From an uncultured Bacteroidales bacterium (GTDB lineage Bacteria > Bacteroidota > Bacteroidia > Bacteroidales > Paludibacteraceae): 35,258 nucleotides of DNA. The stretch covers positions 1 to 35,258 of the forward strand of contig CADAZU010000034.1 in NCBI GenBank assembly GCA_902792535.1, read 5' to 3'. Below the pieces are notes generated by a model that did no database searches, was not told the origin of the DNA, and saw only the letters and a list, made by a program, of their open reading frames with translations. The translations under genes and the position numbers were made by a program. Positions 2 to 33,562 of the stretch are shown piece by piece (position 1 is the stretch's first letter; each line of letters starts with the position of its first letter).

Positions 2-1303
2 GACATCTATTACCAGCACAACCTGCCGAACAACAACCACTTGTATTTCGACCTTGTGGGTACGTATATCAACAGTAGCAACGACCGCCGTTTTGAGCAA
101 ACACCACTGGGCGAAACGGTTGCCGATACGACCGATGTAACCTCTCGCGTCAGAGGCAACAAATACTCACTCATCGGCGAAGCCATCTACGAGAAAGAAT
201 GGGAGAACATCGCCTTGACGGTCGGCGTACGTCACAACCAGCAATGGATGGAAAACCTGTATAATGTACAAAGGGACGATATACAAGGTACAAAGGTTTC
301 TATGATGACCGCTGAAACCTACGCTTTTGCGGAAGTGCAGCAACGCGTCAAGCAGTTTTCCTATGCTGTGGGTATCGGAGCCATGCACACGTATATCGAG
401 CAAGCCGGACAGAAACAATCAAACTGGATTGCCCGTCCGCAACTGACGCTGAGTTATGACTTCGGAAAAGGTGTGTTCTGGAAATACAAGGGCTATGTGT
501 CCGGCTACCAACCCTCGCTGTCTGCTATGTCGGACGTGGCGCAACAGATTGACAAGTACCAGATTCGGCAAGGCAATCCGAATCTCAAACCCGTTATGTT
601 CGTTGCCAATGAGATGCAACTTTCTTGGCAGTCCAAATACGTCAATCTGAACCTCTGGGCGAACTACTCATACGACCACAAACCTATTATGGATGAGACA
701 CTTGAGCTTTCTACTTTGAGCGATAGCGGTCTTTCTACTCTGAGCGAAGCGGTCTCACCTATGGTCGTCCGCACATACGCCAACCACCGCGGTTTTCATC
801 GTCTGCAAGTGGCTCCGAGTGTGCAGGTGCGTGTGCTCAATAACAGCCTAATCTTCACCGTTGCGCCGTTCGCCAATTACTATGTGAGCCTCGGCAATTC
901 CTACACGCACAAGCATTTCAATCCGGGCGTTCGCGCCAGTATCATGGGCATGTACAAGGGTTGGCAGTTCTTCGGCGAAGTAACCACGCGCAGCAATAAC
1001 CTCTGGGGCGAGACGCTGGAGTACGGCGAGTTCTACCATCATATCGGTCTTGGTTACAATGCCGACAAATGGGGCTTCCGTGCGATGCTGATGAATCCCT
1101 TCTCTGTCAAGGGCTACAGCATCGAGACCAAAGACCTCTCCGCACTTGCTCCGAACACGCAGCACGCCGAGATGCGGGATTTCCGCCAAATGCTCATTCT
1201 CAATTTCCATTGCAACCTCGATTTCGGTACCCAACGTCGCGAAAATGGCAAACGTATCAACAACGAGGACAAAGAAAACGGTATCTTGAGTGGTACGAAA
1301 TAG
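2..1303 (+). CDS. Outer-membrane beta-barrel (TonB-receptor-like) protein, C-terminal part
   Basis: The open frame runs in from the left edge, so the N-terminus (any signal peptide, plug or carboxypeptidase-like domain) is missing. About 433 residues are visible. They have alternating aromatic/polar strands typical of Bacteroidota outer-membrane barrels, and the segment YQIRQGNPNLKP (about residues 180-191) matches the 'GNPxLKP' motif of the OMP_b-brl_3/TonB-receptor family. It should sit in the outer membrane as a receptor or transporter; the substrate is unknown. A 30-bp micro-repeat element (266-295) is translated in frame as VQRDDIQGTK. A near-duplication of 24 bp (707-754) gives LSTLSDSG followed by LSTLSEAV. 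The gene ends 7 bp before the convergent metallopeptidase gene. The family assignment is good, the specific function unassigned. Confidence 0.8.
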   Translation, partial: DIYYQHNLPNNNHLYFDLVGTYINSSNDRRFEQTPLGETVADTTDVTSRVRGNKYSLIGEAIYEKEWENIALTVGVRHNQQWMENLYNVQRDDIQGTKVSMMTAETYAFAEVQQRVKQFSYAVGIGAMHTYIEQAGQKQSNWIARPQLTLSYDFGKGVFWKYKGYVSGYQPSLSAMSDVAQQIDKYQIRQGNPNLKPVMFVANEMQLSWQSKYVNLNLWANYSYDHKPIMDETLELSTLSDSGLSTLSEAVSPMVVRTYANHRGFHRLQVAPSVQVRVLNNSLIFTVAPFANYYVSLGNSYTHKHFNPGVRASIMGMYKGWQFFGEVTTRSNNLWGETLEYGEFYHHIGLGYNADKWGFRAMLMNPFSVKGYSIETKDLSALAPNTQHAEMRDFRQMLILNFHCNLDFGTQRRENGKRINNEDKENGILSGTK

Positions 1304-1310
1304 GCAAATT

Positions 1311-1997
1311 TTATATGAGGCGTAGTTGCTTGCGGAGCGCTTTCCATTGGGGAAGGCGTTGCGTCATGAGGGCTTTGAAAGCAGGTCCGTGGTTTTGGAC
1401 TGCCAGATGGGTCAGTTCGTGAACGACCACATACTCGATACATTCACGCGGTACGCGGGCTAACTCCAGATTGAACAGCAGTTTCCGTTTGCGCGCAATG
1501 CAGCTGCCCCATTCGCTTTTCATGCGTCGGGTGCTCCAAACGACGGGTGCTTCTCCGATACGGAGCAGCCATTCATTGATCATCTGTTCCAAGATAGGAT
1601 GCAGTTGTGCGCGGTACCATTCGTACAAGACCGCCTCGCAGCGCGCCGGTGTGGTCTGCGGTCGGCAGCGCAGAATGATCCGGTTGCCTTCCATCGTCAC
1701 GGAAGGGGAACCGGACGAGAGGGGTTCCACCTGCAGCGTATAGGGGATGCCGAAAAGGAGATGTTGCTCGCCGGAGAGGTATTCGCGGGCTTTGTTGCGC
1801 GGACGGGACAGCACTTTCTCGCGGCTACGGCATATCCATTGCCATTTAAGCATCAGAAAATCCCGCACTTCTTGTTCGCTGACCCAAAACGGAATGCTCA
1901 GCCGCACGCGACCGTCCGGCGGATAGACCGCCAGACGCATTCCACGGATCATCTTGCGCTCTACGTCAATCTCTATGTCCTCCATTCGAATCACCAT
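1311..1997 (-). CDS. YgjP-type M48-family metallopeptidase (DUF45)
   Basis: This 228-residue protein ends in the YgjP/DUF45 zinc metallopeptidase signature: VVVHELTHLAVQNHGPAF near residues 190-207, where the HExxH of HELTH provides two zinc ligands and the glutamate, and the later His of NHGP is the expected third ligand. The upstream 'RRMKSEWGSC' (about 157-166) is also characteristic of the family. There is no signal peptide or membrane segment, so it is cytoplasmic. Family members are often annotated as SprT/YgjP-like proteases of unknown substrate. The start is uncertain: the ATG at 1997 would leave a leader of only about 5 nt from the predicted promoter, and the ATG at 1985 (MEDIEIDVE) is a plausible alternative. 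It is transcribed divergently from the DUF2130 gene. Confidence 0.85.
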   Translation of the reverse strand: MVIRMEDIEIDVERKMIRGMRLAVYPPDGRVRLSIPFWVSEQEVRDFLMLKWQWICRSREKVLSRPRNKAREYLSGEQHLLFGIPYTLQVEPLSSGSPSVTMEGNRIILRCRPQTTPARCEAVLYEWYRAQLHPILEQMINEWLLRIGEAPVVWSTRRMKSEWGSCIARKRKLLFNLELARVPRECIEYVVVHELTHLAVQNHGPAFKALMTQRLPQWKALRKQLRLI

Positions 1998-2007
1998 AAA
2001 CGGGTTG

Positions 2008-2039: not shown

Positions 2040-2054
2040 AAATATGCGTCAAAA

Positions 2055-2086: not shown

Positions 2087-2104
2087 CACGCAAATCGTGC
2101 AAGG

Positions 2105-3295
2105 ATGAAAGAATTGAAATGCCCCAAGTGCGGGAATGTTTTTACGGTCGATGAGAGCGAGTACGCAGCGCTGCTGAGTCAGGTGAAGAACGCGGAGTTC
2201 GAGAGCGAGCTGGCGCGTCGTGTCCATGAGTTGGAGCAGAGTCACAAGGCGCAGCAGCAGGCGGATCAGGCTCGTCAGGCGGCGGAGCAACAGGCGGCGC
2301 AGTTGCGTCGCGACCAGCAGTTTGCCCAGCAGATGCAGGCGTTGCAGACCCAGATCCAGAGTCTGCAAGCGCAGATAGCGCAGGCGGAGCAGCAGAAGCA
2401 GATTGCGGTGATGGAGTTGCGGCAGAAAGCGCTGACCGAATATGCCAAGAAAGAGCAAGAGTTAGCTACTCTCCGCAGCCAGATGGACGCGCAGTTGAAA
2501 GCGATGCAGGCGCAGGTGGAGTACTACAAGGACCTCAAGACCCGCATGTCCACGAAGATGGTGGGCGAGACGCTGGAGCAGCACTGTGCGACCGAGTTCG
2601 CACGGATCCGTTCCCTTTTCCCGTACGCCTATTTTGAGAAGGACAACGAGGTGGTGGAAGGTACGAAAGGCGATTTCGTCTTCCGCGACTATTCGGAGGA
2701 CAAGGTGGAGTACATATCCATCATGTTTGAGATGAAGAACGAAGCCGACGAGACGGCGACGAAGCATAAGAACGAGGACTTTTTGGCGAAGCTGGACGCC
2801 GACCGACGCAAGAAAGGATGCGAGTACGCGATCCTGGTGTCGATGCTGGAGCCGGACAGCGAACTCTACAACGGCGGAATAGTGGATATGTGCCACCGAT
2901 ATGAGAAGATGTATGTCATCCGTCCGCAGTTTTTTGTGCCGATTATCACGCTTCTTTGCCAAGCCAACAAGAAGAGTCTGGACGCCAAGCGCGAGTTGGC
3001 AATCGTGAAGGCGCAGCAGGTGGATGTGACCAATTTTGAGGAGAAACTGATGACGTTCAAGGACGCTTTCGGCCGCAACGTGCGGCTGGCGAACGAGCGT
3101 TTTGCGGACGCCATCGACGAGATAGACAAGACGATCGCACATCTGCAGAAAGTGCGTGAGAACCTCGTCAAGTCGGGTGACAACCTGAGTCTGGCGGACA
3201 AGAAACTGCAGGAAGTGACGATCAAACGTCTGACGGCAGGTAATCCCACGATGCAGGCAAAGTTCGAGGAAGCGAAGGGTGAGTCAGAGAGTTAG
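2105..3295 (+). CDS. DUF2130 domain-containing protein
   Basis: The 396-residue product begins with a short zinc-finger-like segment (MKELKCPKCGNVF, one CxxC). It continues with a long Gln/Ala-rich coiled coil (about residues 25-150) and then the DUF2130 domain (about 155-350), which includes 'GETLEQHCATEF', 'KGDFVFRD' and 'MFEMKNEADET'. The domain resembles a nuclease-like fold, but its function is not established. I chose the ATG at 2105 over the upstream TTG because the promoter -7 box covers the TTG. The stop codon lies inside an 8-bp micro-repeat array (3286-3320) that forms the whole spacer to sufC. In other Bacteroidota this protein is usually a single gene, so linkage to sufC may be incidental. 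Confidence 0.85.
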   Translation: MKELKCPKCGNVFTVDESEYAALLSQVKNAEFESELARRVHELEQSHKAQQQADQARQAAEQQAAQLRRDQQFAQQMQALQTQIQSLQAQIAQAEQQKQIAVMELRQKALTEYAKKEQELATLRSQMDAQLKAMQAQVEYYKDLKTRMSTKMVGETLEQHCATEFARIRSLFPYAYFEKDNEVVEGTKGDFVFRDYSEDKVEYISIMFEMKNEADETATKHKNEDFLAKLDADRRKKGCEYAILVSMLEPDSELYNGGIVDMCHRYEKMYVIRPQFFVPIITLLCQANKKSLDAKRELAIVKAQQVDVTNFEEKLMTFKDAFGRNVRLANERFADAIDEIDKTIAHLQKVRENLVKSGDNLSLADKKLQEVTIKRLTAGNPTMQAKFEEAKGESES

Positions 3296-3320
3296 TGAAT
3301 TAGAGAATTAGTAAATTAGG
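3286..3320 (+). repeat. 8-bp micro-repeat array between DUF2130 gene and sufC
   Basis: Four imperfect units, the last three being AGTGAATT, AGAGAATT and AGTAAATT. The first unit supplies the TAG stop of the upstream gene, and the array fills the gap to sufC. Confidence 0.75.
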
Positions 3321-3323
3321 AGA

Positions 3324-4073
3324 ATGAGTAAGTTATTAGAAATAAAAGATTTACATGCCTCGATAGGAGGCAAGGAGATCCTGAAGGGTGTGAACCTTGT
3401 GATCAACGAAGGCGAGGTGCATGCCATTATGGGTCCGAACGGCGCCGGCAAATCGACGCTGAGTGCTGTGCTGACGGGTAATCCGGCATACGAGGTGACG
3501 CGCGGCGAAGTGTATCTGAAGGGACAGAACTTGTTGGCGATGGAGCCGGAGATTCGCGCACGCGCAGGTGTGTTCCTTAGTTTTCAGTATCCTGTGGAGA
3601 TACCGGGCGTGAGCATGACCAATTTTATGCGTACGGCGATCAACGCCAAGCGTGAATACGAAGGCAAAGAACCGCTTTCGCCGCGGGAGTTCCTTGCGCT
3701 GATGCGGGAGAAGAAAAAGATGCTGGAGTTGCCGGACAAACTGAATAACCGCTCGGTCAACGAGGGTTTCAGCGGCGGCGAGAAGAAGAAAAACGAGATC
3801 TTCCAGATGGCGATGTTAGAGCCGTGTCTGTCCATCTTGGACGAGACGGACAGCGGTTTGGATATCGATGCGCTACGTATCGTTGCGGAGGGCGTGAACC
3901 GTCTCAAGACGCCGCAGAACGCATCTATCGTCATTACCCACTATCAGCGGCTGCTGGACTATATCGTGCCGGATTTCGTGCATGTCCTCGCGGACGGGCA
4001 GATCGTCAAAACAGGCGATAAGACTCTGGCATTGGAGTTGGAAGAGAAGGGGTATGAAGGGTTGAATCTATGA
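3324..4073 (+). CDS. sufC: Fe-S cluster assembly ATPase SufC
   Basis: This is the ABC-type ATPase of the SUF system. With SufB/SufD it forms the cytoplasmic scaffold that builds Fe-S clusters. The 249-residue length is normal. The Walker A motif GPNGAGKST is near residue 38, the ABC signature is '[11 protein letters not shown]' (the SufC-specific variant), and Walker B is '[12 protein letters not shown]'; the H-loop is 'VITHY'. It is followed by sufD with an ATGA overlap, so the two are co-translated. SufB, which normally precedes sufC in Bacteroidales, is not here; the upstream gene is DUF2130. The large number of Fe-S proteins encoded later in the window fits a need for SUF, but no direct link is visible. 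Confidence 0.95.
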
Positions 4074-9196: not shown

Positions 9197-9253
9197 AACG
9201 ATGACCGACTCACCACCGAGCGATGACCGAGAGAAGACCGAGACATGAGCGAG
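9197..9253 (+). repeat. Imperfect repeats of GATGACCGA-type words
   Basis: The stretch contains GATGACCGAC, GATGACCGAG, AAGACCGAG and ACATGAGCGAG in close succession. It is non-coding and lies before the small secreted-protein gene. Confidence 0.45.
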
Positions 9254-9320
9254 AAAAGAATCCCCTCCGTGGTTTCGTAATGGCAAAGCTAATTAATACA
9301 AACATTTAATACATCGAAAT

Positions 9321-10608: not shown

Positions 10609-10630
10609 ATGTTACGGCGTCGTCATAGTG

Positions 10631-10674
10631 AGCACCCGATGAGCATCCGATGAGCATCCGATCGGCATCCGATG
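10631..10674 (+). repeat. Four 11-bp tandem units upstream of RAYT
   Basis: Units AGCACCCGATG, AGCATCCGATG, AGCATCCGATC and GGCATCCGATG, directly abutting. The rest of the 142-nt gap is purine-rich with no recognisable promoter. Confidence 0.85.
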
Positions 10675-10750
10675 GAGACAGGTGGAAAGGTCGGGGAAGA
10701 GAGGGAGAGAGAAGAGGGAAACAATGAAATCTCTATAAAAAAGAAATGAA

Positions 10751-11929: not shown

Positions 11930-11954
11930 TGGAAAGGAAGGATAGATAGGAAGG

Positions 11955-12000
11955 GAATCCCGCTCGCGGAACTCAGCCAAGTGGGGGCACAGGACATTGC
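11955..12000 (+). repeat. REP-like element C
   Basis: A degenerate copy beginning with CCCGCTCGCGGAACTC, close in sequence to element A, and ending in the tail CACAGGACATTGC (11988-12000). The hairpin is weaker than in B or D. Confidence 0.6.
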
Positions 12001-12011
12001 GGGAAGGGGAT

Positions 12012-12045
12012 CCCGGCATCGGAGGTGCCGGACACAGAACATCGC
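12012..12045 (+). repeat. REP-like element D
   Basis: CCGGCA/TGCCGG stem (12013-12018 with 12026-12031), followed by ACACAGAACATCGC. It is the last of the cluster; the next 110 nt are an A/C-rich low-complexity run leading to kdgK, without a recognisable -7 box. Confidence 0.7.
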
Positions 12046-12163
12046 AGACAAAAAAGGAAATAACAAATATAAACACAAATAAAACAAATAAACGCAAACA
12101 CAATAAAACAAAAGCAAAACAATAATTAACAATATTTATTAACCAATTTAATTCATTTAACCT

Positions 12164-13181
12164 ATGGCTAAAATTATTACATTGGGCGAGATTATGCTTC
12201 GCCTGAGTCCTGAAGGACAAGACCGTTTCATTCAGTCTGATCATTTCCGTATCATCCCCGGTGGTGGTGAGGCTAACGTGGCTATTTCGTGCGCCAACCG
12301 AGGCTTATTTCGTTACCAAACTGCCGAAACATGAGATCGGCCAGATTGCCGTTAACTCGCTGCGCCGTTATGGCGTGAACACCGAGTACATCGTTCGTGG
12401 TGGAGACCGCGTAGGTCTGTACTACTGCGAGACAGGTGCTTCGATGCGTCCGTCCAAGGTCATCTACGACCGTGCTCACAGCGCTATCGCTGAGGCTGAT
12501 CCGAAGGATTTTGACTTCGACAAGATCATGGAAGGTGCAGCATGGTTCCACTGGAGCGGCATCACTCCGGCTATCTCGGACAAGGCTGCAGAGATCACCA
12601 AACTGGCTTGCGAGGCTGCAAAACGTCACGGCGTAACCGTTTCGGTTGACCTGAACTTCCGTAAGAAACTGTGGACCAGCGAGAAAGCTATCTCTATCAT
12701 GCGTCCGCTGATGAAGTACGTGGATGTTTGTATCGGTAACGAGGAAGACGCAGAGCTGTGCCTCGGCTTCAAGCCCGATGCAGATGTAGAAGGCGGCGAG
12801 ACCAACGCTGAGGGCTACAAGGGCATCTTCGAGCAGATGATGAAAGAGTTTGGCTTCAAATACGTTGTTTCGACGCTGCGCGAGAGCTACAGCGCTACCT
12901 TCAACGGCTGGAAAGCGATGATCTACAACGGCAAGGAGTTCTACCAGAGCAAGCGTTATGAGATCAACCCGATCATCGACCGCGTAGGTGGCGGTGACTC
13001 GTTCTCCGGCGGTCTGATCCACGGTATGCTCAAATATCCGGACAACCAAGGTGCAGCGCTTGAGTTCGCAGTAGCTGCTTCGGCGCTGAAGCACACCATC
13101 AACGGCGACTATAACCTCGTCAGCGAGGATGAGGTTCTGAGCCTCGCAGGTGGTAACGCAAACGGACGTGTTCAGAGATAA
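12164..13181 (+). pseudogene. kdgK: 2-keto-3-deoxygluconate kinase (PfkB family), frameshifted
   Basis: KdgK phosphorylates 2-keto-3-deoxygluconate before KdgA cleavage. The N-terminus (MAKIITLGEIMLRLSPEG, then IPGGGEANVAISCAN) is in one frame up to about 12298. The rest, from EAYFVTKLPKHEIGQ to the C-terminus, is in another. It includes the PfkB signature 'DRVGGGDSFSGGLIHG' with the catalytic Asp. Between SCAN and EAYF only one base remains where I expect about nine (roughly Y-G-L plus), so an approximately 8-nt deletion explains the shift and would restore about 341 residues. Everything else is intact and codon use is normal, so the lesion is very recent or an assembly error. Confidence 0.85.
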
Positions 13182-13185
13182 ATTT

Positions 13186-13219
13186 AAGTGACTAAGTGAC
13201 TAAGTACCAAGGACCAAGG
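13186..13219 (+). repeat. Micro-repeat array left of the four-helix-bundle gene
   Basis: Tandem AAGTGACT, AAGTGACT, AAGTACCA and AGGACCA starting 4 nt after the kdgK stop. It shares AAGTACCAAGG (13202-13212) in inverted orientation with the array on the other side of the gene. Confidence 0.75.
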
Positions 13220-13225
13220 AAAACT

Positions 13226-13600
13226 ATGCAGGGAGCAGAACTACAGAAACGACACAAACAATTTGCCATCCGTATAATAAAGATGGTAGATGCGATGCCA
13301 CATACCATTTCTGCTATGGCTATAGCGCGTCAAATCGTCCGTTCCGGAACGTCTCCTTCGGCTAATTATAGAGCCGCTTGTATTGCCAAGTCCGAGAAAG
13401 ACTTTATCAATAAATTAAAAATGGTAGAGGAAGAATTGGATGAGACATTACATTGGTTAACCTTGATAGAGGAGTGTGAAATGTTGCCTTCTGAGAGAAT
13501 GCAGGATATAATTAACGAGTGTACTGAGTTACTTAAAATCACTATAAGCTCAATAGTATCAACAAGAAAATCTATTAATGAACCCAAAGAGACAAAATAG
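13226..13600 (+). CDS. Four-helix-bundle protein (23S rRNA IVP / bIVP-type)
   Basis: The 124-residue helical protein matches the family found in 23S rRNA intervening sequences and as free-standing genes in Bacteroidota. Landmarks are 'FAIRIIKMVDAMP', 'IARQIVRSGTSPSANYRAA' and 'EEELDETLHWL'. Members form pentamer-like bundles, bind nucleic acid, and are related to the Avd accessory protein of diversity-generating retroelements; the role of free-standing copies is unknown. It begins at the ATG 13226, because the upstream GTG frame would translate the repeat. It lies inside the uronate operon, flanked by inverted arrays containing the same 11-bp word, which suggests it arrived as a small unit. 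Confidence 0.85.
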   Translation: MQGAELQKRHKQFAIRIIKMVDAMPHTISAMAIARQIVRSGTSPSANYRAACIAKSEKDFINKLKMVEEELDETLHWLTLIEECEMLPSERMQDIINECTELLKITISSIVSTRKSINEPKETK

Positions 13601-13628
13601 TACTTGGTACTTTGTCCCTTGGTACTTA
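13599..13628 (-). repeat. Micro-repeat array right of the four-helix-bundle gene (inverted)
   Basis: On the minus strand units GTACCAAG, GGACAAA, GTACCAAG (13603-13625). It overlaps the TAG stop of the four-helix-bundle gene and ends 6 nt before the kdgA ATG. CCTTGGTACTT (13617-13627) is the exact inverse of 13202-13212. Confidence 0.75.
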
Positions 13629-13633
13629 AAATT

Positions 13634-14308: not shown

Positions 14309-15570
14309 ATGAATGACGTTAAAAAAGCAGTCATGACCAACTGGCGTTGGGTCATGTGTGCGATGCTTTTCTTCGCCACAACGGTTAACTACATGGACCG
14401 TCAGGTTCTGTCGCTGACCTTCAAAGAGTTTATTCAACCTGAGTTTCACTGGACCGACTCCGACTACGGAACCATCACCGGTGTGTTCTCCATCGCCTAT
14501 GCTATCTTCTGCCTCTTTGCCGGTAAGTTCATCGACTGGATGGGCACGAAGAAAGGCTACCTGATTGCCATCGTCGTATGGTCGTTAGGTGCCGTGGTTC
14601 AATTGCAATGGTCAGCGTGTGGCTGTTCCTGGCTTGCCGTATGGTGCTGGGTCTTGGTGAGGCGGGTAACTTCCCAGCTGCTATCAAGGTGACCGCAGAG
14701 TATTTCCCGAAGAAGGACCGCGCTTTCGCTACCTCTATCTTCAACGCAGGCGCATCGGTAGGTGCGTTGGCAGCTCCGGCTACTATTCCTCTGCTGGCTA
14801 AATCCATGGGCTGGGAGTGGGCGTTCATCATCATCGGTGCGCTGGGCTTCCTCTGGGCCGGTATTTGGGTATTCGTTTATGACAAACCGGAAGAGTCCGC
14901 TCACGTGAACGAGGCTGAGTTGGAGTACATCCATCAGGACGAAGTCGAAAGTCAAAAGTCGAAAGTCGAAAGCAATGAGGAGAAACAGATGTCGTTCGCC
15001 GAGGCTTTCAAGCATAAACAGACCTGGTCGTTTGCGTTTGGTAAGTTCATGACCGACGGTGTTTGGTGGTTCTTCCTCTTCTGGGCTCCGGCTTATTTCC
15101 AGGACCAGTTCGGTATCAAGGCTTCCGACCCGCAGGGTATCGCAGGCCGTATGCGTGCTATGTTGATCTTTGCGTTCTTCCCGATCTTTGCGTTGTTTGC
15201 ACAGCCGCTGGGCGGTATCTACGGTCCTTGGGCAGTAGCTATCATCATCGGTATCGTGGGAGCTGCTCACCAGAGCTGGAGCGCCAATATCTTCTCCACC
15301 ACGGGTGACATGTTCCCCAAATCGGCTGTAGCTACCATCACCGGTATCGGCGCCATGGCAGGCGGTGTGGGCTCGTTCCTCATCAACAAAGGTTCGGGTA
15401 TGCTCTTCACCTACGGCGAGAAGATGGGCGATGCCTTCGCTTTCGCAGGCTTCACGGGCAAACCGGCAGCTTACATGATTGTGTTCTGCATCTGCGCAGT
15501 GGCTTACCTGATCGGCTGGAGCGTAATGAAGGCGCTTGTACCGAAATACGAGCCGGTAGTGGTAAAATAA
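14309..15570 (+). pseudogene. exuT: Hexuronate transporter (MFS, ExuT-like), frameshifted
   Basis: A major-facilitator sugar-acid permease of the inner membrane, which would bring glucuronate/galacturonate to UxaC. The first frame covers helices 1-3 (start MNDVKKAVMTNWRWV, with 'NYMDRQVLSL'). The second, from IAMVSVWLFLACRMVLGLGEAG on, covers the rest with 'GLGEAGNFPAAIK'. The frames join at about 14600-14602, where roughly 13 nt (H-A-x-C-G in relatives) appear to be missing. The central cytoplasmic loop carries a 7-bp array (14944-14971, translated VESQKSKVES). A rho-independent terminator follows. As in kdgK, the lesion is isolated in an otherwise clean gene. Confidence 0.85.
14944..14971 (+). 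repeat. 7-bp micro-repeat array inside exuT
   Basis: Four units: GTCGAAA, GTCAAAA, GTCGAAA, GTCGAAA. It lies in the loop between the two six-helix halves of the permease, where extra residues are likely to be tolerated. Confidence 0.85.
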
Positions 15571-16401: not shown

Positions 16402-16470
16402 TAGATAAGATTCATTCCTTCGAACGGTATATCAATCCCATCCAGTATGTCGCTACTGTCACGGTCTGTT

Positions 16471-18505: not shown

Positions 18506-19075
18506 ATGAAACGTATTCTTACTATCCTCTGCGCTCTATGCGCAATTATCACCATAGGGTCTGCCAAGACCCTTGTGGCGTATTATGACGAAAATACAAC
18601 TATGTCAATCAATGTGATTGTTGGAAACGAGACCTTTACCGCCACGCTGGCGGACAGCGAGACAGGCAATGCCTTTGCGCAACTGCTGCCGATGACGGTG
18701 ACGATGAACGAACTGAACGGCAACGAGAAATACCACTATCTGAACTCATCCCTACCGACTGACAGCTACCGGCCCGGTACTATCCAAACCGGCGATCTGA
18801 TGCTGTATGGCAACAACTGCGTGGTGCTGTTCTACGAGACGTTCAGCAGCTCTTATTCCTACACACGTATAGGCAAGATTGACGATCCTTCGGGCTTGGC
18901 GGAAGCCCTCGGAACGGGCAATGTCTCCGTGCGTTTTGAGAAAGCGGAGACTACAGACCTTACGCCAAATGTACAAAGTGACGAAAAACCATGTACAAAG
19001 GTGATTGAGAACGGACAGGTCTATATCCAATACAAAGGAAAGACGTACGATTTACTAGGACAAGAAATAAAATAA
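18506..19075 (+). CDS. Secreted cyclophilin-like fold protein
   Basis: A 189-residue exported protein: signal peptide MKRILTILCALCAIITIGSA, then a cyclophilin-like domain. Landmarks are 'NVIVGNETFTATLADSETGNAFAQLLP', 'MNELNGNEKYHYL', 'GTIQTGDLMLYGNNCVVLFYETF' and 'YTRIGKIDDPSGL', found in the flavodoxin-associated cyclophilin-like family. The C-terminal part (VIENGQVYIQYKGKTYDLLGQEIK) looks like the short terminal motif seen on some Bacteroidota surface proteins. A 30-bp micro-repeat element (18971-19000) is translated as VQSDEKPCTK exactly between these two parts. Confidence 0.8.
   Translation: MKRILTILCALCAIITIGSAKTLVAYYDENTTMSINVIVGNETFTATLADSETGNAFAQLLPMTVTMNELNGNEKYHYLNSSLPTDSYRPGTIQTGDLMLYGNNCVVLFYETFSSSYSYTRIGKIDDPSGLAEALGTGNVSVRFEKAETTDLTPNVQSDEKPCTKVIENGQVYIQYKGKTYDLLGQEIK
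18971..19000 (+). repeat. 30-bp GTACAAAG element in the cyclophilin-like gene
   Basis: Outer units GTACAAAG at both ends; inner units TGACGAA and AAACCAT. Same size and reading frame as the copies at 266-295 and 32867-32896. Confidence 0.85.
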
Positions 19076-19790: not shown

Positions 19791-19793
19791 GTT

Positions 19794-19855
19794 ATGACCG
19801 TTTTGACCTTTTTGACCGTTTCACCCCAAACGGTCAATTCGGTCAATCCGGTCAT
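19794..19855. repeat. Large palindrome built from TTGACC-type units
   Basis: Two 28-nt arms (19794-19821 and 19828-19855) around the loop CACCCC, pairing with only a few mismatches. Each arm is itself three imperfect copies of an 8-9-bp unit such as TTTGACCGT. It sits directly after the terminator. Confidence 0.8.
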
Positions 19856-19927
19856 ATATTTTTTTGTCTTGCACTTTCTGCACTTTCGCCCATCAAAATG
19901 CAAATAGTGCAATGTCATTTTATTATT

Positions 19928-24712: not shown

Positions 24713-24889
24713 ATGCATATCGGTATTACAGAAATCATCATCATCGCCCTCATCGTTTTGCTGCTCTTCGGTGGCAAGAAAATCCCTGAACTGATGAAGG
24801 GCCTCGGCAAAGGCGTCAAGTCCTTCAAGGACGGCATGAAAGAAGGCGACGAGGAAGAGAAGAAAGACGAAACTAAAACTGAAAGCTGA
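24713..24889 (+). CDS. tatA: Sec-independent protein translocase subunit TatA
   Basis: A 58-residue protein with a single N-terminal helix ([27 protein letters not shown]), the FGxxK-P hinge and an amphipathic helix '[15 protein letters not shown]', followed by an acidic/basic tail. This is the classic TatA/TatE architecture. With TatC it exports folded proteins, here probably the aldo/keto reductase lipoprotein. No separate TatB is present, as is usual in Bacteroidota. Its stop (TGA 24887-24889) lies within a 7-bp array that also supplies the start of tatC. Confidence 0.93.
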
Positions 24890-24913
24890 AAGCTGATAGC
24901 TGATGGCTGAATC
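24879..24913 (+). repeat. 7-bp micro-repeat array joining tatA and tatC
   Basis: Five units: CTGAAAG, CTGAAAG, CTGATAG, CTGATGG and CTGAATC. Unit 2 contains the tatA stop and unit 4 the tatC ATG. Confidence 0.88.
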
Positions 24914-25652
24914 GTTTTGGGATCATCTGGACGAACTGCGTAGCGTGTTAATCCGTTGCGTGGTGGCGTGGGGTATCTGCGCGGTTGCGGTTTTCTGCTT
25001 CCGCGATGCGCTCTTTGCTTTTCTATTTGCTCCTGCCCATCCGGATTTTATCACGTATCGCTTGCTACGCTCCCTCCCTTATGGGGAGGGTTGGGGAGAG
25101 GTTTCGGTCTCCTTCATCAACACTCAATTAGCCGCCCAGTTCACCACCCATATGCAGGTGGCGGCGCTGGCAGGTCTGGTGATTGCTTTTCCGTTTCTGC
25201 TGTGGCAGTTATACGGATTTCTCTCGCCTGCCTTGTATCCCAATGAGAAACGCGCAGCGGGACGGATTATCGGCTTCGGGACGGTGCTTTTCCTCTGCGG
25301 CGTGGCGCTCAACTATCTGGTCATCTTCCCTTTCGCCTTCCGTTTTCTGGCTACGTACCAAGTGCAGCCGGAGGTGGTGAACCAGATTGCGCTGGATTCC
25401 TATGTCTCCACGCTGCTGATTCTCTCTCTGTTGATGGGTGTTCTTTTTGAGATGCCGATGGTGGCGTGGGCACTCGGCAAAGCGGGGCTCTTGGAAGCCG
25501 CGTGGCTCAAACAATACCGCCGTCATGCCTTGGTGGCACTCATGATCCTCGCCGCCGTCATCACCCCTACAGGCGACGCGTTCACACTCATGCTCGTCAC
25601 TATTCCGCTCTATCTGTTATACGAATTATCTATTATGGTCACACCCAAATAA
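24903..25652 (+). CDS. tatC: Sec-independent protein translocase subunit TatC
   Basis: The six-helix receptor of the Tat translocase in the inner membrane; 249 residues. Start 'MAESFWDHLDELRSVLIRC' is the N-terminal signature, and 'LINTQLAAQF'-like, 'PFLLWQLYGFLSPALYPNEKR' and 'LITPTGDAFT'-like segments match the family. The first periplasmic loop carries the translated palindromic element (25068-25101, SLPYGEGWGEV), where Bacteroides relatives have a different, variable loop. It follows tatA by 13 nt, and the TonB receptor ATG is 5 nt after its stop, so it is part of a continuous operon. Confidence 0.95.
   Translation: MAESFWDHLDELRSVLIRCVVAWGICAVAVFCFRDALFAFLFAPAHPDFITYRLLRSLPYGEGWGEVSVSFINTQLAAQFTTHMQVAALAGLVIAFPFLLWQLYGFLSPALYPNEKRAAGRIIGFGTVLFLCGVALNYLVIFPFAFRFLATYQVQPEVVNQIALDSYVSTLLILSLLMGVLFEMPMVAWALGKAGLLEAAWLKQYRRHALVALMILAAVITPTGDAFTLMLVTIPLYLLYELSIMVTPK
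25068..25101 (+). repeat. GC-rich palindromic element translated in tatC
   Basis: CCCTCCC (25072-25078) pairs with GGGAGGG (25084-25090) around TTATG, followed by a G-rich tail TTGGGGAGAGG. In frame, encoding SLPYGEGWGEV. The reading frame corresponds to that of the copy at 23371. Confidence 0.8.
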
Positions 25653-25657
25653 AGCCT

Positions 25658-27562
25658 ATGAAACTCTCGAAACCTTTGTACATTGTACTTTGTTCCTTTG
25701 TACCTTTTGTATCGTCTCTTTGTGCCGCAGAGGCGCAAGATACATTGCCGCCTATTCCGTTGCAGGAAGTAGTGGCTACCGGCACACGTACGACTACTGA
25801 TCCGCGGTTACTGCCGGTGACGGTTAATGTAGTCACCGAGGAAGTCCTGACGGAGAAACAGCAGCCGAATATCCTGCCGACCCTGACCGAACAGGTGCCG
25901 GGACTCTTTATCACCCAACGCGGCGTGTTAGGCTACGGCGTGAGCACCGGCGGTTCGGGTGGCATCAAAGTGCGCGGTATCGGCGGACAGCCTAATACGG
26001 ATGTCTTGGTGCTCATTGACGGTCTGCCGCAGTACGCAGGGCTATACGGTCATCCGATAGCCGATAACTACCAGACTTCGATGGCGGAGCGGGTAGAGGT
26101 CATCCGTGGTCCGGCGTCCCTCTATTACGGCTCCAACGCCATGGGAGGTGTCATCAATATCGTCACCCACCGGCCTAAAACAGATACCGTCCTCACGCGT
26201 ATCCATGCGCAAGGCGGTTCGTTCGGTTCGGTGGATGCCGGAATAACGAACCAACTCCGTCGCGGCAAATGGACAGAGGCGGTGGGCTTCAACTATGTGC
26301 GTACAAGCGGTCACAGGGAGAACACGGCGTTCTCCCAGTACAGCGGTTTTGCACGGCTGGGCTATGACATCAACGCCCATTGGATGCTGCAAGCCACGGG
26401 GAACATTGCCTATTTCAATACTGCCAACCCCGGCACGGTGACTGATCCTATCTTCGACAGCCACCAGCATATACTCCGTGGCATGGCGACCATCTCGGCG
26501 GAGAATCATTACGACCGCACGGAAGGAGCTATCCGTGCCTATTACTCCGGCGGCAGGCACCGTATCAACGACGGACACAAGGCTTCTGAACCTGCTCCGG
26601 CTACCGAATATAACCATACCGACCTCATGCTTGGCGTGAGTGCGTACCAGACCGTGCGTCTCTTCCGCGGCAACCATACGACTTTCGGCTTCGATTACCA
26701 GCATTTCGGCGGACACGTGTGGAACAAGGGACTAAGGGACGATGTACCAAGTACCAAGGATATTATCCGCAAGACCCAGTACGAGTTGGCAGGTTATGTG
26801 GATTTCCTGCAACAGGTGGTCTCTTGGTTCTCGCTGGACGCAGGCGTGCGGTTGGGTTGGCATTCCGTCGCGGGATTCTATTATGCGCCGCAGGCGGGGT
26901 TATCATTTTTACTGCCGCATGATGCGCAACTCAAAGCGGTTGTCTCCCGCGGTTTCCGCAACCCCACCATCCGCGAACTCTATATGTATGCGCCGGCTAA
27001 CGACAGCCTGCAGGCAGTCAGTCTCTGGAACTACGAGCTGTCGTACAAGCAATACTTCCTCAACGGGCGCATACGCATAGGCGCGAACATATTCTATTTG
27101 CACGCGAAGAACATGATTGAGACGCGTCCCATCGACGGCAGACCGCGTAACGTGAACACCGGCGAGCTGCGCAATGCCGGCGCAGAGGTGGAGTTCTCCG
27201 CCCGCGTCTGGCAGGGACTCATGCTCGGCGCTAACTATAGTTACCTCTACATGGCGAACCCTGTTCTCGCAGCACCGGAGCATAAGCTGAATATATCCCT
27301 TGCGTACCACCATGACCGTTTCCGTATCGGCACGAACGTGCAGTATATCCACGGTCTTTATACGCAAATCAGCAATCAGCCGTCAGCCGTCAGCCATCAG
27401 CAGAATTTCTGTCTCTGGTCAGCCCATGCCGCCGGACGTATATGGCGCGAACTATGGGTGACCCTCACGGCGGATAATATCTTGGGTACCGAGTATGAGA
27501 TCAATGCCGGTTTCCCTATGCCCAAAACAACCGTCATGGCGGGACTTCGATTTGCATTTTAA
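25658..27562 (+). CDS. TonB-dependent receptor (BtuB/CirA-like)
   Basis: A 634-residue outer-membrane receptor. After the signal peptide comes a TonB-box-like/plug region ('LQEVVATGTRT', 'VNVVTEEVL', 'GIKVRGIGGQPNTDVLVLIDGLPQ') and 'VEVIRGPASLYYGSNAMGGVINIVT', the standard plug signature; the 22-strand barrel ends with aromatic residue F. The signal peptide (PLYIVLCSFVPFV) is encoded by an inverted 30-bp repeat element (25674-25703). Two more arrays are translated inside the barrel: 26729-26758 (GLRDDVPSTK) and 27368-27402 (ISNQPSAVSHQ). The ligand could be a metal or cofactor for the redox operon; this is not shown by the sequence. Confidence 0.92.
   Translation: MKLSKPLYIVLCSFVPFVSSLCAAEAQDTLPPIPLQEVVATGTRTTTDPRLLPVTVNVVTEEVLTEKQQPNILPTLTEQVPGLFITQRGVLGYGVSTGGSGGIKVRGIGGQPNTDVLVLIDGLPQYAGLYGHPIADNYQTSMAERVEVIRGPASLYYGSNAMGGVINIVTHRPKTDTVLTRIHAQGGSFGSVDAGITNQLRRGKWTEAVGFNYVRTSGHRENTAFSQYSGFARLGYDINAHWMLQATGNIAYFNTANPGTVTDPIFDSHQHILRGMATISAENHYDRTEGAIRAYYSGGRHRINDGHKASEPAPATEYNHTDLMLGVSAYQTVRLFRGNHTTFGFDYQHFGGHVWNKGLRDDVPSTKDIIRKTQYELAGYVDFLQQVVSWFSLDAGVRLGWHSVAGFYYAPQAGLSFLLPHDAQLKAVVSRGFRNPTIRELYMYAPANDSLQAVSLWNYELSYKQYFLNGRIRIGANIFYLHAKNMIETRPIDGRPRNVNTGELRNAGAEVEFSARVWQGLMLGANYSYLYMANPVLAAPEHKLNISLAYHHDRFRIGTNVQYIHGLYTQISNQPSAVSHQQNFCLWSAHAAGRIWRELWVTLTADNILGTEYEINAGFPMPKTTVMAGLRFAF
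25674..25711 (-). repeat. Inverted 30-bp GTACAAAG element in the signal-peptide codons
   Basis: On the minus strand units GTACAAAG, GAACAAA, GTACAAT, GTACAAAG (25674-25703), with a partial extra unit to 25711. Confidence 0.85.
26729..26758 (+). repeat. 30-bp element (CCAAG variant) in the TonB receptor
   Basis: Units GGACTAAG, GGACGAT, GTACCAA and GTACCAAG (8-7-7-8 bp), translated GLRDDVPSTK. Confidence 0.85.
27368..27402 (+). repeat. 7-bp micro-repeat array in the TonB receptor barrel
   Basis: Five units: ATCAGCA, ATCAGCC, GTCAGCC, GTCAGCC and ATCAGCA; the outer two are identical. Translated within a predicted surface loop. Confidence 0.88.
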
Positions 27563-28981: not shown

Positions 28982-30064
28982 ATGAGGAAGATTGTATGTT
29001 CCATACTTGCCGCGGCAATGCTATTTGCCGGCTGCACAAAATCAAATGATAAAATGAGTAAATGTGAAAATGATAAAATGAAGCTGTCGTTCACTACTGA
29101 TCAGGCGGCGTATATGTCTGCTATTGCTTGCAATGAAGCCAAAGGAGACCTCGTGGCGCTGGAATCAGCCATTCATGGCGGATTAGAATCAGAGCTGACG
29201 GTCAGCCAGATCAAGGAAGCGCTCTCGCAGTTGTATGCTTATACAGGTTTTCCGCGTAGTCTGAACGCGCTGGGTGTGCTCCAGCGTGTCATCGGAGACC
29301 GCCAAGAGAAAGGTGTCAAGGTGCTGATGGGCGAGGACGCAAGTCCGCTCGGCGATGATTACGATGCGCTCAAACAAGGCACGGAAGTACAGACCCAATT
29401 AACGGGCAAACCGTTTAACTATGAGTTTGCTCCCGCTACGGATTATTACCTCAAGGCACATTTGTTCTGAGATATTTTCGCCCGCGATAACTTGAGTTAT
29501 GCGGATCGTGAGTTAGTGACCGTTTCTGCGTTGAGCGGTCTGCAAGGTGTGGAGCCGCAACTCAAAGCCCATATCGCCGGAGCGCGCAATATGGGTGTGA
29601 CCGAAGAGCAGCTGCAGGGGATTGTTGTAGCCCTCGCAGCCAATGGTCTCTTGGACGAAGCCGGACGACTTGCAGGACTTCTGGAAACTGAGTGGCCGCA
29701 GGGCAAGCCTAATGATGCCTATGCGCAGTATTTTGTGGGGAATAGTTATTTGCAGCCTTACTATGGCGGCGTAGCGAACGTGACCTTTGAACCGCGTTGC
29801 CGCAATAACTGGCATGTTCACCACGGAGCCGTGCAAGTGCTGATCTGCGTGAGTGGCAAAGGATGGTATCAAGAGTGGAACAAACCTGCTGTGCCACTTA
29901 CACCGGGCACGGTGATCGCTATTCCGGAAGGTGTCAAGCACTGGCATGGAGCGGCTGCGGACAGTTGGATGCAGCATCTGGCTATTCACACGCAAGAGCA
30001 ACCCGGTGCCACCAACGAATGGTTGGAACCGGTTAGCGAAGAGCAATATAACAAGGTCCGTTAA
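28982..30064 (+). pseudogene. Carboxymuconolactone decarboxylase-cupin lipoprotein, interrupted by in-frame TGA
   Basis: One continuous frame of 361 codons is cut by a single TGA at 29468-29470. Before it: signal peptide and lipobox (LFAGC), a micro-repeat linker, and a carboxymuconolactone-decarboxylase (AhpD-like) domain. After it: a second such domain ('LSYADRELVTVSALSGLQGVEPQLKAHI') and a C-terminal cupin ('WHVHHGAVQVLICVSGKGWYQEW', 'IPEGVKHWHGAAAD'). The context 'KAHLF*DIFARDNL' suggests a glycine codon GGA changed to TGA. The downstream part could restart at an internal codon near 29492, but no good start is seen. It ends overlapping the aroC stop. Confidence 0.85.
29044..29083 (+). repeat. 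8-bp micro-repeat array after the lipobox
   Basis: Units AAATGATA, AAATGAGT, AAATGTGA, AAATGATA and AAATGAAG. It encodes the linker NDKMSKCENDKMK directly after the lipid-anchor cysteine, parallel to the nitroreductase linker. Confidence 0.85.
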
Positions 30065-31035
30065 GAGAGAACCAGGTTAGCGAGAGCCAGAGCGGTCATC
30101 GCTTCCACGACAGGCACGGCGCGTGTGGCAACACAGGCGTCGTGTCTTCCTTTTACGCCTGCTTTGGGTGTAGAGGGTGTGGGTTTGAAGACGCAACGGA
30201 AAGTGACCGGAGTACCATCGGAAATCCCTCCTGCGATGCCGCCGGAGATATGGTTGATAGCCGAACCGGGTTGCGTCACTCCGCCGAAACCGGTGCCGTA
30301 TTCGAATCCTTTGCAGGCATTGATGGACATGATAGCAAAAGCGAGTTCGGCTTGCAGTTTATTGAAAATCGGTTCTCCTGTGCCGGCAGGAAGCCCTTCG
30401 ATAATACATTCCACGATGCCTCCGATAGAGTCGCCGTCTTGACGGTACGCCTCGATGGTGTCTGCGAATTTGGCGGGGTCTGTCTCTGCTCCCACCTGAA
30501 TGAGTTTAGCCTGTATGGAGATGCCTTTAGCCGCTAGTTGCTGTTTCGCTATACATCCGGCTACCACTCTTGCTGCGGTCTCGCGGGCTGAGGCTCTGCC
30601 TCCTCCGCGGTAGTCACGAATGCCGTATTTCTGTTCGTACGTCTTATCGGCGTGCCCGACGCGGTACGAGTGTTTGAGAAACTCGTAGTCTTCGGGGCGC
30701 GCATCTTTGTTCCTTATTATAAAAGCAATCGGAGTGCCTAAAGTGACACCATTCATTACTCCTGAGAGCCATTCCACCTCATCGGGTTCACGGAAAGCTC
30801 TGGTAGATGTGCCGTAAGAAGCTTCTTTCGTTACTGTGTCGTTTACGTCTCGTTTACGTGTCGTTTCCGTGTCGTTTACGTGTCGATTACGTGCTGCACG
30901 GCGGTCTAACTCGTAGTTGATGAGGTCAAAATCAATATGCAGCCCTGCGGGAACGCCATCCAGCACGCCGCCTATTGCTGCTCCGTGCGATTCTCCGAAG
31001 CTCGTAAATGTCCATTTGTCTCCAAATATATTCAT
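30061..31035 (-). CDS. aroC: Chorismate synthase
   Basis: AroC converts 5-enolpyruvylshikimate-3-phosphate to chorismate (shikimate pathway, FMN-dependent, cytoplasmic). Landmarks are 'TFTSFGESHGAAIGGVLDGVPAG', 'YGIRDYRGGGRASARETAARVVAG', 'GFGGVTQPGSAINHISGGIAGG' and 'GRHDACVATRAVPVVEAMTALAL'. At 324 residues it is about 30 short, mostly from the C-terminus and a loop. Directly after 'YELDRRAA', next to active-site arginines, an array of five 11-bp units (30841-30895) is translated as a Arg/Asp/Thr-rich stretch where relatives have a compact loop. The stop overlaps that of the convergent gene. Confidence 0.92.
   Translation of the reverse strand: MNIFGDKWTFTSFGESHGAAIGGVLDGVPAGLHIDFDLINYELDRRAARNRHVNDTETTRKRDVNDTVTKEASYGTSTRAFREPDEVEWLSGVMNGVTLGTPIAFIIRNKDARPEDYEFLKHSYRVGHADKTYEQKYGIRDYRGGGRASARETAARVVAGCIAKQQLAAKGISIQAKLIQVGAETDPAKFADTIEAYRQDGDSIGGIVECIIEGLPAGTGEPIFNKLQAELAFAIMSINACKGFEYGTGFGGVTQPGSAINHISGGIAGGISDGTPVTFRCVFKPTPSTPKAGVKGRHDACVATRAVPVVEAMTALALANLVLS
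30841..30895 (-). repeat. Five 11-bp units inside aroC
   Basis: On the plus strand GTTTACGTCTC, GTTTACGTGTC, GTTTCCGTGTC, GTTTACGTGTC and GATTACGTGCT. 55 bp in total, so not a multiple of 3 by itself; the array sits in the loop after the DRR motif. Confidence 0.9.
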
Positions 31036-31037: not shown

Positions 31038-31213
31038 CTATGGCATGATAATTGAATTCCTATGGCATGATAATTGAATTCCTATGGCACTATAATTGAA
31101 TTCCTATGGCATGATAATTGAATTCCTATGGCACTATAATTGAATTCCTATGGCATGATAATTGAATTCCTATGGCACAATAATTGAATTCCTATGGCAT
31201 GATAATTGAATAA
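31038..31213 (-). repeat. Eight 22-bp tandem units in the aroC leader
   Basis: Seven full units and a partial eighth, each beginning CTATGGCA on the plus strand and containing GAATTC and ATAATTG. The only variation is the middle (CATGATA, CACTATA or CACAATA). On the minus, aroC-sense strand every unit contains ATG or GTG followed by CCA TAG. The array lies between the aroC start and its promoter. Confidence 0.95.
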
Positions 31214-32363: not shown

Positions 32364-32389
32364 CGTTGATAATAGAGAATTTAGACATA

Positions 32390-33562
32390 ATGGACTGGGT
32401 GCTCATCGGTGTACTGGGAGTGCTGTTTGTCGCGCAAGTATATTGGTACGCGCGGTATATGTGTGCCCCTGCGCGGAGAATGCGGCGGATGAAGAAACAA
32501 GCCCCGGGGCCTGCGGAGCACAATTATCCCGGTGTGTCGGTGGTCTTGTGTGCGCACAACGAGGCGTATAATATCTCGCAATATCTGCCGGTTCTTTTGA
32601 CTCAGGACTACCCGGAGTACGAGGTGATCGTGGTGGATGACGGATCGGAGGACGAGACGCGCGCTATGATTGAGCGGTATATGGTAAATGACCCGCGGCT
32701 GCATCTGACTTTCGTGCCGTATGGCGCCCGCGTGGGTTCGACCAAGAAACTGGCTTTGACGCTGGCTGCCAAAGCGGCGAAGTATGAGTACCTGCTGCTG
32801 ACGGACGCGGACTGCGTGCCCGAAAGCAATCATTGGATCCGCGAAATGATGCAGGGATTCGGGGATGTACAAAGGGACAATGTACAATGTACAAAGGATA
32901 TAGTCCTCGGCTTCAGCCCTTATTTCGAAGAGAAGGGGCATGTGAACCGCCTGGTACGATACGACACGTTGTTCAACGGACTGCACTACCTTGGATCGGC
33001 TCTCTGCGGACACCCGTACATGGGCGTGGGTCGCAATCTGGCATACCGCAAGGCGCTGTTCTTTGAGTCCGGAGGTTTTACTCATCTGATGAATAAGATT
33101 GCCGGCGACGACGACCTGTTTGTCAACCATGTGGCGACAAAGACGAACACAGCGGTCGTGCTGAGCAGAGACAGTTTCACTTGGTCGATTTCGAAGAAGA
33201 CGATGAAGGAATGGTGGCAGCAGAAGAGGCGTCATCTGTCTGTTTCTCCGGCGTACAAAGAGAGTACTAAAATACGGCTGGGCATAGAGCCTATGCTCCG
33301 CGGGCTATTCTATGCGGTGGCTCTATTTATGATGGTGATCTATTTCCCCGCTTCGTATTTAGAACTTCCGGCAATCCCGTTTATGGTGGCGGTGGGGCTG
33401 TTCCTCGTGAGATGGATCCTGCAGACCGCGGTCTTGAATGTGTCGGCACGGCGAATGGGACTGAAGCGGTTCAATATGTTCAGCGTCCTATGGTTCGACA
33501 TTACTTTGCCGCTGGTGTCGGCATGGATGCTGATAGTGCCCAAACGCGGCGCTAAATGGTAA
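32390..33562 (+). CDS. Family 2 glycosyltransferase, membrane-bound
   Basis: A 390-residue inner-membrane GT2 enzyme. An N-terminal transmembrane helix (MDWVLIGVLGVLFVAQVYWY) precedes the GT-A domain: 'SVVLCAHNEAYNISQYLPVLLTQDYPEYEVIVVDDGSEDET' region, DxD-type 'LLTDADCVP', 'GDDDLFVNHVA' as catalytic Asp region and 'KKTMKEWWQQKRRHLS' (QxxRW-like). Two or three helices close the C-terminus. A 30-bp element (32867-32896) is translated VQRDNVQCTK in a loop after the DxD motif. It probably builds an envelope polysaccharide; donor and acceptor are unknown. The ATG at 32390 was chosen; a TTG lies upstream. Confidence 0.9.
   Translation: MDWVLIGVLGVLFVAQVYWYARYMCAPARRMRRMKKQAPGPAEHNYPGVSVVLCAHNEAYNISQYLPVLLTQDYPEYEVIVVDDGSEDETRAMIERYMVNDPRLHLTFVPYGARVGSTKKLALTLAAKAAKYEYLLLTDADCVPESNHWIREMMQGFGDVQRDNVQCTKDIVLGFSPYFEEKGHVNRLVRYDTLFNGLHYLGSALCGHPYMGVGRNLAYRKALFFESGGFTHLMNKIAGDDDLFVNHVATKTNTAVVLSRDSFTWSISKKTMKEWWQQKRRHLSVSPAYKESTKIRLGIEPMLRGLFYAVALFMMVIYFPASYLELPAIPFMVAVGLFLVRWILQTAVLNVSARRMGLKRFNMFSVLWFDITLPLVSAWMLIVPKRGAKW
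32867..32896 (+). repeat. 30-bp GTACAAAG element in the glycosyltransferase gene
   Basis: Units GTACAAAG, GGACAAT, GTACAAT and GTACAAAG. Closest in sequence to the copy at 266-295, with the same frame and peptide pattern. Confidence 0.88.

Follow-up and report, generated by a model that had tools for sequence, protein, structure and literature searches.

S23 genes between inverted heptad arrays and repeat arrays inside proteins suggest one overlooked kind of DNA element

Intervening sequences (IVSs) of 23S rRNA genes in Coxiella and Leptospira carry an open reading frame (ORF) of the S23 family, whose proteins are said to have 'no known function' (PMC4990558). Heptameric repeats have been described in two other papers: GGGAATC in Xanthomonas and GGGGA(C/T)T in Nostoc (PMC4692102), and TAACTGA in Beggiatoaceae, Cyanobacteria and five Bacteroidetes (PMC4679880). 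The Xanthomonas, Nostoc and Beggiatoaceae heptamers are described as mainly intergenic (PMC4692102, PMC4679880), and horizontal transfer of the repeats is suspected while 'no mechanism is evident' (PMC4679880). Here we analyzed a 35,258-nt stretch of DNA (hereafter the window), contig CADAZU010000034.1 of assembly GCA_902792535.1, from an uncultured Bacteroidales bacterium of the Paludibacteraceae whose genome comprises 2.37 Mb in 84 contigs and is 82.65% complete. The window contains an S23 gene enclosed by two inverted arrays of degenerate heptads, as well as solo, ORF-less arrays within and between other genes, including a 30-bp GTACAAA repeat that had been noticed in an earlier, sequence-only reading. 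Our results suggest that the repeat arrays inside proteins and the arms of S23 genes represent one overlooked kind of DNA element.

The S23 gene (Table 1) is predicted to code for a four-helix bundle. Its structural model had a pLDDT of 96, and the best Protein Data Bank match identified with Foldseek was 2rld (E 1e-6 to 1e-5), with weaker matches to 2gsc (2e-3 and weaker) and to Avd, the accessory protein of diversity-generating retroelements (DGRs), which has a similar four-helix-bundle fold (chains 8ub7 and 4dwl, 0.02-0.06). Uncorrected pN/pS was 0.01 and 0.04 relative to two orthologs at the same gene junction and 0.06 between those two; the gene is under purifying selection. The sequence-only reading had reported shorter copies of the 30-bp repeat on both sides of this gene. 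They do consist of the same word, but they are inverted arms around an S23 gene, and a predicted RNA fold of the whole element pairs the two arms (z -2.72). As in 23S rRNA IVSs, an S23-family ORF is enclosed by terminal inverted repeats, and these fold to form a stem. Unlike them, the element in the window is outside the 23S rRNA gene and between protein genes, those of a sugar kinase and a KDPG (2-keto-3-deoxy-6-phosphogluconate) aldolase (names assigned by reading); in addition, the arms are degenerate heptad arrays of many different words, and solo arrays without an ORF are scattered both inside genes and between them. Because the element would work like an IVS but outside rRNA, we regard it as a probable variant of the IVS kind rather than an IVS proper. 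The window's genome has five S23 genes, all of which are between short-period, mostly inverted arrays, and two words, GTACCAA and AGTCGAA, occur both in S23 arms and in solo arrays of this genome.

A physical link between S23 genes and heptad arms was found in many phyla, and we consider it firm. Arms were scored by comparing the upstream flank of each gene with the reverse complement of its own downstream flank, using the flanks of other loci as background. The main set (the named loci) consisted of the best 80 of at least 570 confirmed relatives of XCC0516, from Proteobacteria, Bacteroidota, Planctomycetes, Chloroflexi, Acidobacteria, Clostridia, Candidate Phyla Radiation (CPR) groups and one Methanophagales archaeon; 74 were scored, and L138, L158, L163, L168, L180 and L202 were left out by a flank, length or stop filter. 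With flank windows fixed at both match ends, a choice made after an earlier version had been seen to miss Xanthomonas, 64/74 loci scored at least 11 (95th percentile) and 49/74 at least 15 (99th percentile). The earlier windows, bounded by the nearest upstream ATG and the ORF stop, placed 52/74 and 53/74 over the 95th percentile, and fixing the upstream window alone placed 58/77 there; Xanthomonas was missed by the ATG and stop windows because its right arm lies within an open frame. Among neighboring ORFs in the same loci, used as a control, 22/159 reached 11 and 6/159 reached 14.5, and in a sample of the window's genome 6/319 ORFs reached 14.5, three of the six being S23 genes. A family set (94 loci fetched, with L029 and L033 dropped and 60 added from the upper part of the matches listed) gave 72/92 over the 95th and 48/92 over the 99th percentile. 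The corresponding numbers for a genus set were 43/60 and 22/60, the five loci of the window's genome being part of both sets, and half of the cyanobacterial plasmid loci (6/12, fetched from 28 matching records) were over both percentiles. The best arm period was 7 in 64/88 and 8 in 18/88, the median arm length was 30 nt, and upstream arms were purine-rich in 89/101.

Some of these arms have words of the kind known from heptamer repeats. The Xanthomonas gene in L135, a relative of XCC0516 with 83% identity, was found between inverted GGGAATC-type arrays, and L136, L137 and L139 had arms of GGGATTC, GGGAATC and GTGATTC type, apparently at a single accB-accC junction (flanks identified by reading). 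In all four of these loci the upstream arm matched its own downstream arm best or tied for best. S23 genes on Nostoc and Calothrix plasmids were located in TAGGGAG (L423) and TAGGGTG (L422) arrays. Across 4948 pairs among 101 armed loci, taken from different genomes and with dissimilar outer flanks, S23 identity was correlated with arm word similarity (Mantel r 0.203, compared with a maximum of 0.079 in 2000 permutations). The arm word was shared by 80% of the 15 pairs with S23 identity of at least 0.65 and by 4% of the 1570 pairs below 0.25; the antisense control was lower, at 27% and 1%. In these comparisons the S23 ORF and the arm word tend to be associated, though not rigidly.

Several S23 flanks had further features. 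In L013, L389, L390, L399 and L402, tandem words were mixed with short hairpins, and the hairpin stems of L013 varied in a compensating manner (GCTTC..GAAGC, GCTGC..GCAGC, GCTCC..GGAGC). Certain S23 genes of cyanobacterial plasmids were located between cas6 and cas4 (L426, L428) or between cas10/cmr2 and a cmr3-type gene (L427); among the cas-adjacent loci, only L426 and L428 had heptad arms over the 99th percentile.

The 30-bp repeat had been described as an element of fixed 8-7-7-8 architecture and constant frame. Its plus-strand copies at 266-295, 18971-19000, 26729-26758 and 32867-32896 are all present as written, and so is the minus-strand copy at 25674-25703, although the latter belongs to a longer array at approximately 25672-25723. 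The whole-genome pattern search and the shuffle comparison that had been proposed in advance both support the repeat. A 30-mer pattern allowing up to 3 mismatches had three matches in the window (266, 25674 and 32867) compared to none in 100 shuffles, and a strict pattern with exact outer units had 11 matches in the genome, 4/11 of them identical, whereas the reversed pattern had none; with zero matches in both controls, the observation is far beyond chance and the 30-bp repeat is real. Among 31 genomes of the genus, the strict pattern was present in 14, with 57 matches in total, of which 38 came with loci and 37 distinct ones were run through a unit extender. The reported form was only partly borne out. 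Exactly four units spaced 8-7-7 was the commonest arrangement (20/37), a count biased towards it by the spacing imposed by the search pattern itself; a further 11/37 were longer and 6/37 could not be resolved by the extender. Similarly, 29 of the 38 located matches run through an open frame, 20/29 in the reported frame and the other 9 not. For the class as a whole, length is not constant: taking all words together, arrays in the sampled genome were 25-66 nt long (median 40), and the solo GTAC copies resolved by the extender consisted of 28-57 nt of tandem units. A specific copying mechanism, also proposed in that reading, can reasonably be suspected and no more, because the same order of internal units recurs in different genes and genomes.

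The 30-bp repeat represents a single word of a larger class of degenerate heptad arrays. A scan of the window and 20 further stretches (435,258 bases) for degenerate tandem repeats of period 7 or 8 identified 77 arrays at the lowest threshold, 54 at a threshold of 15 and 33 at 18, and no array in one order-2 Markov shuffle of the 435-kb scan. Period 7 is sharp: there were 38 arrays at lag 7, 18 at lag 14, 15 at lag 11, 9 at each of lags 8 and 9, 6 at lag 15 and 5 at lag 16, and 1, 1, 0, 1 and 1 at lags 5, 6, 10, 12 and 13, respectively. The words include GTACAAA, GTACCAAG, AGTCGAA, ATCAGCC, AATTGAGA, ACAATTC and TATCGAAA. When placed relative to mechanically predicted ORFs, which cover 0.88 of the sequence, 24 of the 54 arrays were within ORFs, 18 at ORF ends and 12 intergenic. 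The 15 arrays at lag 11 form a second sharp period; examples in the window are TTACGTGTCGT and ACCGAGAGATG, at 30828-30893 and 9215-9259.

Cyanobacterial heptamer repeats go by the name STRR. Like the known heptameric repeats as described, the arrays examined here are tandem degenerate 7-nt units at many dispersed loci, and convergent pairs are also known from Xanthomonas (PMC4692102, PMC4679880). They differ from those mainly intergenic repeats in that 24/54 are inside ORFs and only 12/54 intergenic, and in that a single genome has many degenerate words and copies in frame are frequent. Thus, the earlier statement that no named description of the repeat exists may hold for this particular word but does not extend to repeats of this kind. 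Neither S23 nor helix bundle occurred as a term in the main text of PMC4692102 and PMC4679880, and no paper joining S23 to heptamer arrays was found in a literature search that excluded most subscription journals and bioRxiv preprints.

Comparison with orthologs allowed us to follow individual arrays inside proteins. Of 29 aligned orthologs of the glycosyltransferase, just the two closest had clear counterparts (VPSDQVPSTK and VQSDKVQSTK) of the insert VQRDNVQCTK. In most of the others the site was a gap; L083 had a short GQGTK, L086 and L087 had an unrelated insert, and L102 was unalignable. The absence of this insert from most orthologs supports the original view that the element is dispersed and enters unrelated genes in frame. 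In the cyclophilin-like protein, the linker was common to 5 of 11 relatives; four had other linkers and two were unalignable at this position. This sharing implies that the cyclophilin copy is older or moved together with the adjoining C-terminal domain. A third example involved a loop of an MFS-type transporter. In the window, L344 and L353, the native residues of this loop were replaced by an AGTCGAA array, and in L341 the loop contained an ATCAGCC array. The replacement was of about equal length and not a clean insertion. A frame change interrupts the transporter gene (14309-15570), 74 bp of which recur 1.2 kb downstream (16463-16536).

Rickettsia palindromic elements are palindromic and approximately 100-150 bp long. 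The resemblance drawn in the sequence-only reading extends to the dispersal of such DNA and to its in-frame insertion into genes that are unrelated. The repeats studied here are shorter (28-57 nt), tandem, represented by several words per genome and linked to S23, and the idea of a comparable stand-alone family of constant length is not supported: GTACAAA is one word of many, its units are in tandem and do not make up a palindrome overall, an array of another word replaces native residues in one loop, and arrays of the GTACAAA word form the inverted arms of an S23 gene.

A direct comparison of relatives was possible at the junction occupied by the S23 element of the window. Among 30 loci of the genus with the KDPG aldolase gene (named by reading), the junction with the upstream sugar-kinase gene was readable in 24. 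It was bare and short (9-14 nt) in 5/24 and contained a solo array, of several different words, in 10/24; six of these ten calls reached a detector score of 15, L338, L351 and L363 scored lower, and L343 was called by eye. L338 and L340 shared one solo array. Inverted arrays without an ORF were present in 1/24 (L342), S23 between GTACCAA arms in 3/24 (the window, L337 and L353), and an S23 gene broken at its start, between ATTTACC arms, in 1/24 (L357). The remaining junctions contained GC-rich palindromes (2/24) or another small ORF (2/24). The right arm of L342, which lacks the ORF, was almost that of L357. Solo arrays, ORF-less pairs and S23-bearing elements are therefore alternative states of a single site in close relatives. 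GC-rich palindromes (CTCCCCCTTGAGGGGGAG type) were also detected in the window at 23371-23405 and 25070-25103, inside aldo/keto-reductase-like and tatC-like genes (by reading), and the same kind was present at the kdgK-kdgA junction of L341 and L347.

We propose that a complete element consists of two inverted degenerate heptad arrays with an S23 four-helix-bundle ORF between them, and that the 30-bp repeat would be a solo array without an ORF, of the same kind as the arms of this IVS-like element. A transcript of the complete element could form a hairpin like that of 23S rRNA IVSs, with its loop containing the ORF. Existing arrays may be the source from which arms and solo arrays are copied into breaks or gaps, with insertion or replacement of a few tens of bases. 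S23 might bind the arrays as RNA or single-stranded DNA and help this copying, so that S23 would move or write arrays, and genic copies would survive only where the frame is kept in loops, linkers, signal peptides and ends. As a whole, this explanation, in which solo arrays and S23 with inverted arms constitute one IVS-like element whose spread is aided by S23, seems to us about evenly balanced between right and wrong. A wider version is possible, though we hold it tentatively and would bet against it: S23 genes across bacteria and in at least one archaeal group would be the gene of one IVS-like class, and the known heptamers would be its arms or solo products. S23 rings would then read and rewrite arrays pairwise, both arms changing word together yet staying complementary, and the same activity would patch arrays into breaks, feeding in-frame peptides to loops, signal peptides and linkers.

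A number of observations weigh against these proposals. Movement of the element is itself something that we infer. Scores were below the 95th percentile in 10/74 named, 6/12 cyanobacterial and 17/60 genus loci, and some S23 flanks were direct instead of inverted, the direct orientation being over the 95th percentile in 21/92 family loci. Array density was not significantly associated with S23 number in 42 genomes (rho 0.22, p 0.16), 18/60 sampled genomes with a first contig of less than 8 kb having been left out; the counts were 7 arrays in 423 kb with 0-2 S23 genes and 18 in 325 kb with 3 or more. Arrays were present in G007 and G041 (95% and 65% complete), and the strict GTAC pattern in G063, G072 and G073 (75-92% complete), with no S23 found in any of the five. 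The window's genome has more array words than S23 genes. At the junction, the S23 of L357 is close to that of the window and lies between a different pair of arms, of another word, which implies that a given protein is not bound to a given word. On the supporting side, the three genomes with GTAC-armed S23 had 11, 12 and 4 solo matches, compared with 30 in the other 28 genomes together; this trio thus accounts for 27/57 solo matches, and 4/4495 triples are as extreme, with an arm cut-off of 14 that was chosen after the scores were seen. The raw GTAC-arm score was not correlated with solo number (Spearman rho 0.18, p 0.32).

Four of these observations, namely the nonsignificant density test, the many words per genome, the array-bearing genomes without detected S23 and the different arm word of L357, would also be expected if the arrays were heptamer microsatellites grown by slippage and spread by recombination or as repair filler without S23, whose genes would merely sit in the arrays or use them as processing stems. 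We regard this as rather unlikely, since inverted arms are concentrated at S23 genes well beyond neighboring ORFs (64/74 and 49/74 versus 22/159 and 6/159), GTAC arrays in unrelated genes and genomes repeat the same four-unit order, a recurrence not predicted by unit slippage, and period 7 is sharp (38 arrays versus 0-1 at lags 5, 6, 10, 12 and 13). Alternatively, the copies in frame could be protein linkers, multiplied as genes or domains were duplicated, and not DNA elements; this notion draws on the cyclophilin-like protein and L011, which share the linker plus the residues that follow it (by reading); the copies in the glycosyltransferase, the MFS loop, the barrel and the signal peptide lack such a domain, and arrays are also found between genes and on the opposite strand. 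Pure domain shuffling would account at most for the linker copies, and it is the least probable of the alternatives.

Two other explanations invoke a partner enzyme. S23, being related in fold to Avd of DGRs, could work with a reverse transcriptase (RT) that copies array RNA into new sites; Avd and DGR ribonucleoprotein chains are among the weaker fold matches of the model, the strand of the arm words is largely fixed with respect to the ORF, and upstream arms are mostly purine-rich (89/101). In contrast to DGRs, no match to the RVT_1 model was found in the window's genome (at its stated completeness), or in the single-contig genomes G001 (9 S23 genes) and G024 (11 S23 genes), although this Pfam model would miss a sufficiently divergent RT, and RVT_1 was present in 22/61 genomes compared to 42/61 for S23. 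As far as this model shows, an RT acting in trans is not needed, and we consider the explanation improbable. REP (repetitive extragenic palindromic) sequences and REPINs are small, non-autonomous repeats that plausibly depend on one gene family, RAYT (REP-associated tyrosine transposase). The arrays resemble them in being small, dispersed and plausibly tied to a single gene family, and the window contains a RAYT-like ORF (by reading) with repeats of its own. Movement by a RAYT or Y1 transposase is nevertheless disfavored, and we rate its chances slightly lower still: the arrays are tandem heptads and not REP palindromes, their partner is a helix bundle and not a Y1 transposase, and no Y1_Tnp match was found in some array-bearing genomes, among them G044 (6 arrays in 17 kb), or in G050 (7 S23 genes), with the limit that divergent RAYTs can escape the Pfam model, as the RAYT-like ORF of the window itself does.

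The association of S23 with heptamers in many phyla makes both the spread of the repeats and the function of S23 testable. S23 becomes a candidate partner of heptamer repeats, the 23S rRNA IVS may be a special case of a more general element, and a route is suggested by which DNA repeats give unrelated proteins in-frame loop and signal-peptide sequence.

Table 1. Arrays and S23 element identified in the window (positions in nt)
Position	Strand	Feature
13181..13220	+	Left (5') arm of S23 element, GTGACTAAGTGACTAAGTACCAAGGACCAAGG
13226..13600	+	S23/23S_rRNA_IVP four-helix-bundle gene, PF05635, 8.4e-17
13600..13633	-	Right (3') arm, inverted copy of left arm
266..295	+	Solo GTACAAA array, in frame in outer-membrane beta-barrel gene (OMP_b-brl_3)
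18971..19000	+	GTACAAA array, linker before C-terminal domain of cyclophilin-like protein, common to 5/11 relatives
25672..25723	-	Longer array including 25674-25703; most of TonB receptor signal peptide (by reading); receptor ATG 25658
26729..26758	+	Diverged GGACTAAG/GTACCAAG copy, in frame in TonB receptor
32867..32896	+	Solo array, glycosyltransferase loop; clear counterparts only in 2 closest of 29 orthologs
14942..14972	+	AAGTCGA array replacing native loop residues, MFS-type transporter; word shared with the arms of L012 (S23 locus)
27367..27402	+	ATCAGCC heptad array, in frame in TonB receptor
29041..29081	+	AAATGATA array right after lipobox-like start of small gene (by reading)
24875..24911	+	AAAGCTG array, junction of tatA-like and tatC-like genes (names by reading)
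3281..3335	+	TTAGTGAA array, gene junction
33553..33603	+	TAACAATT array, gene junction

Additional repeats were observed elsewhere in the window. The RAYT/Y1-like ORF (by reading; approximately 10784-11929, with the motif HLHLLLF) is located in the region 10629-12048, in which an 11-mer, TGAGCATCCGA, is repeated upstream of the ORF and REP-like copies (..CACAGAACAC..) are present at 11121, 11901 and 12020. Approximately 8 copies of a 22-bp tandem repeat, CTATGGCATGATAATTGAATTC, were found upstream of a gene at 31038-31211, and a hairpin with both arms built of 9-mers (GTTTTGACC / CGGTCAATC) was found at 19791-19856.

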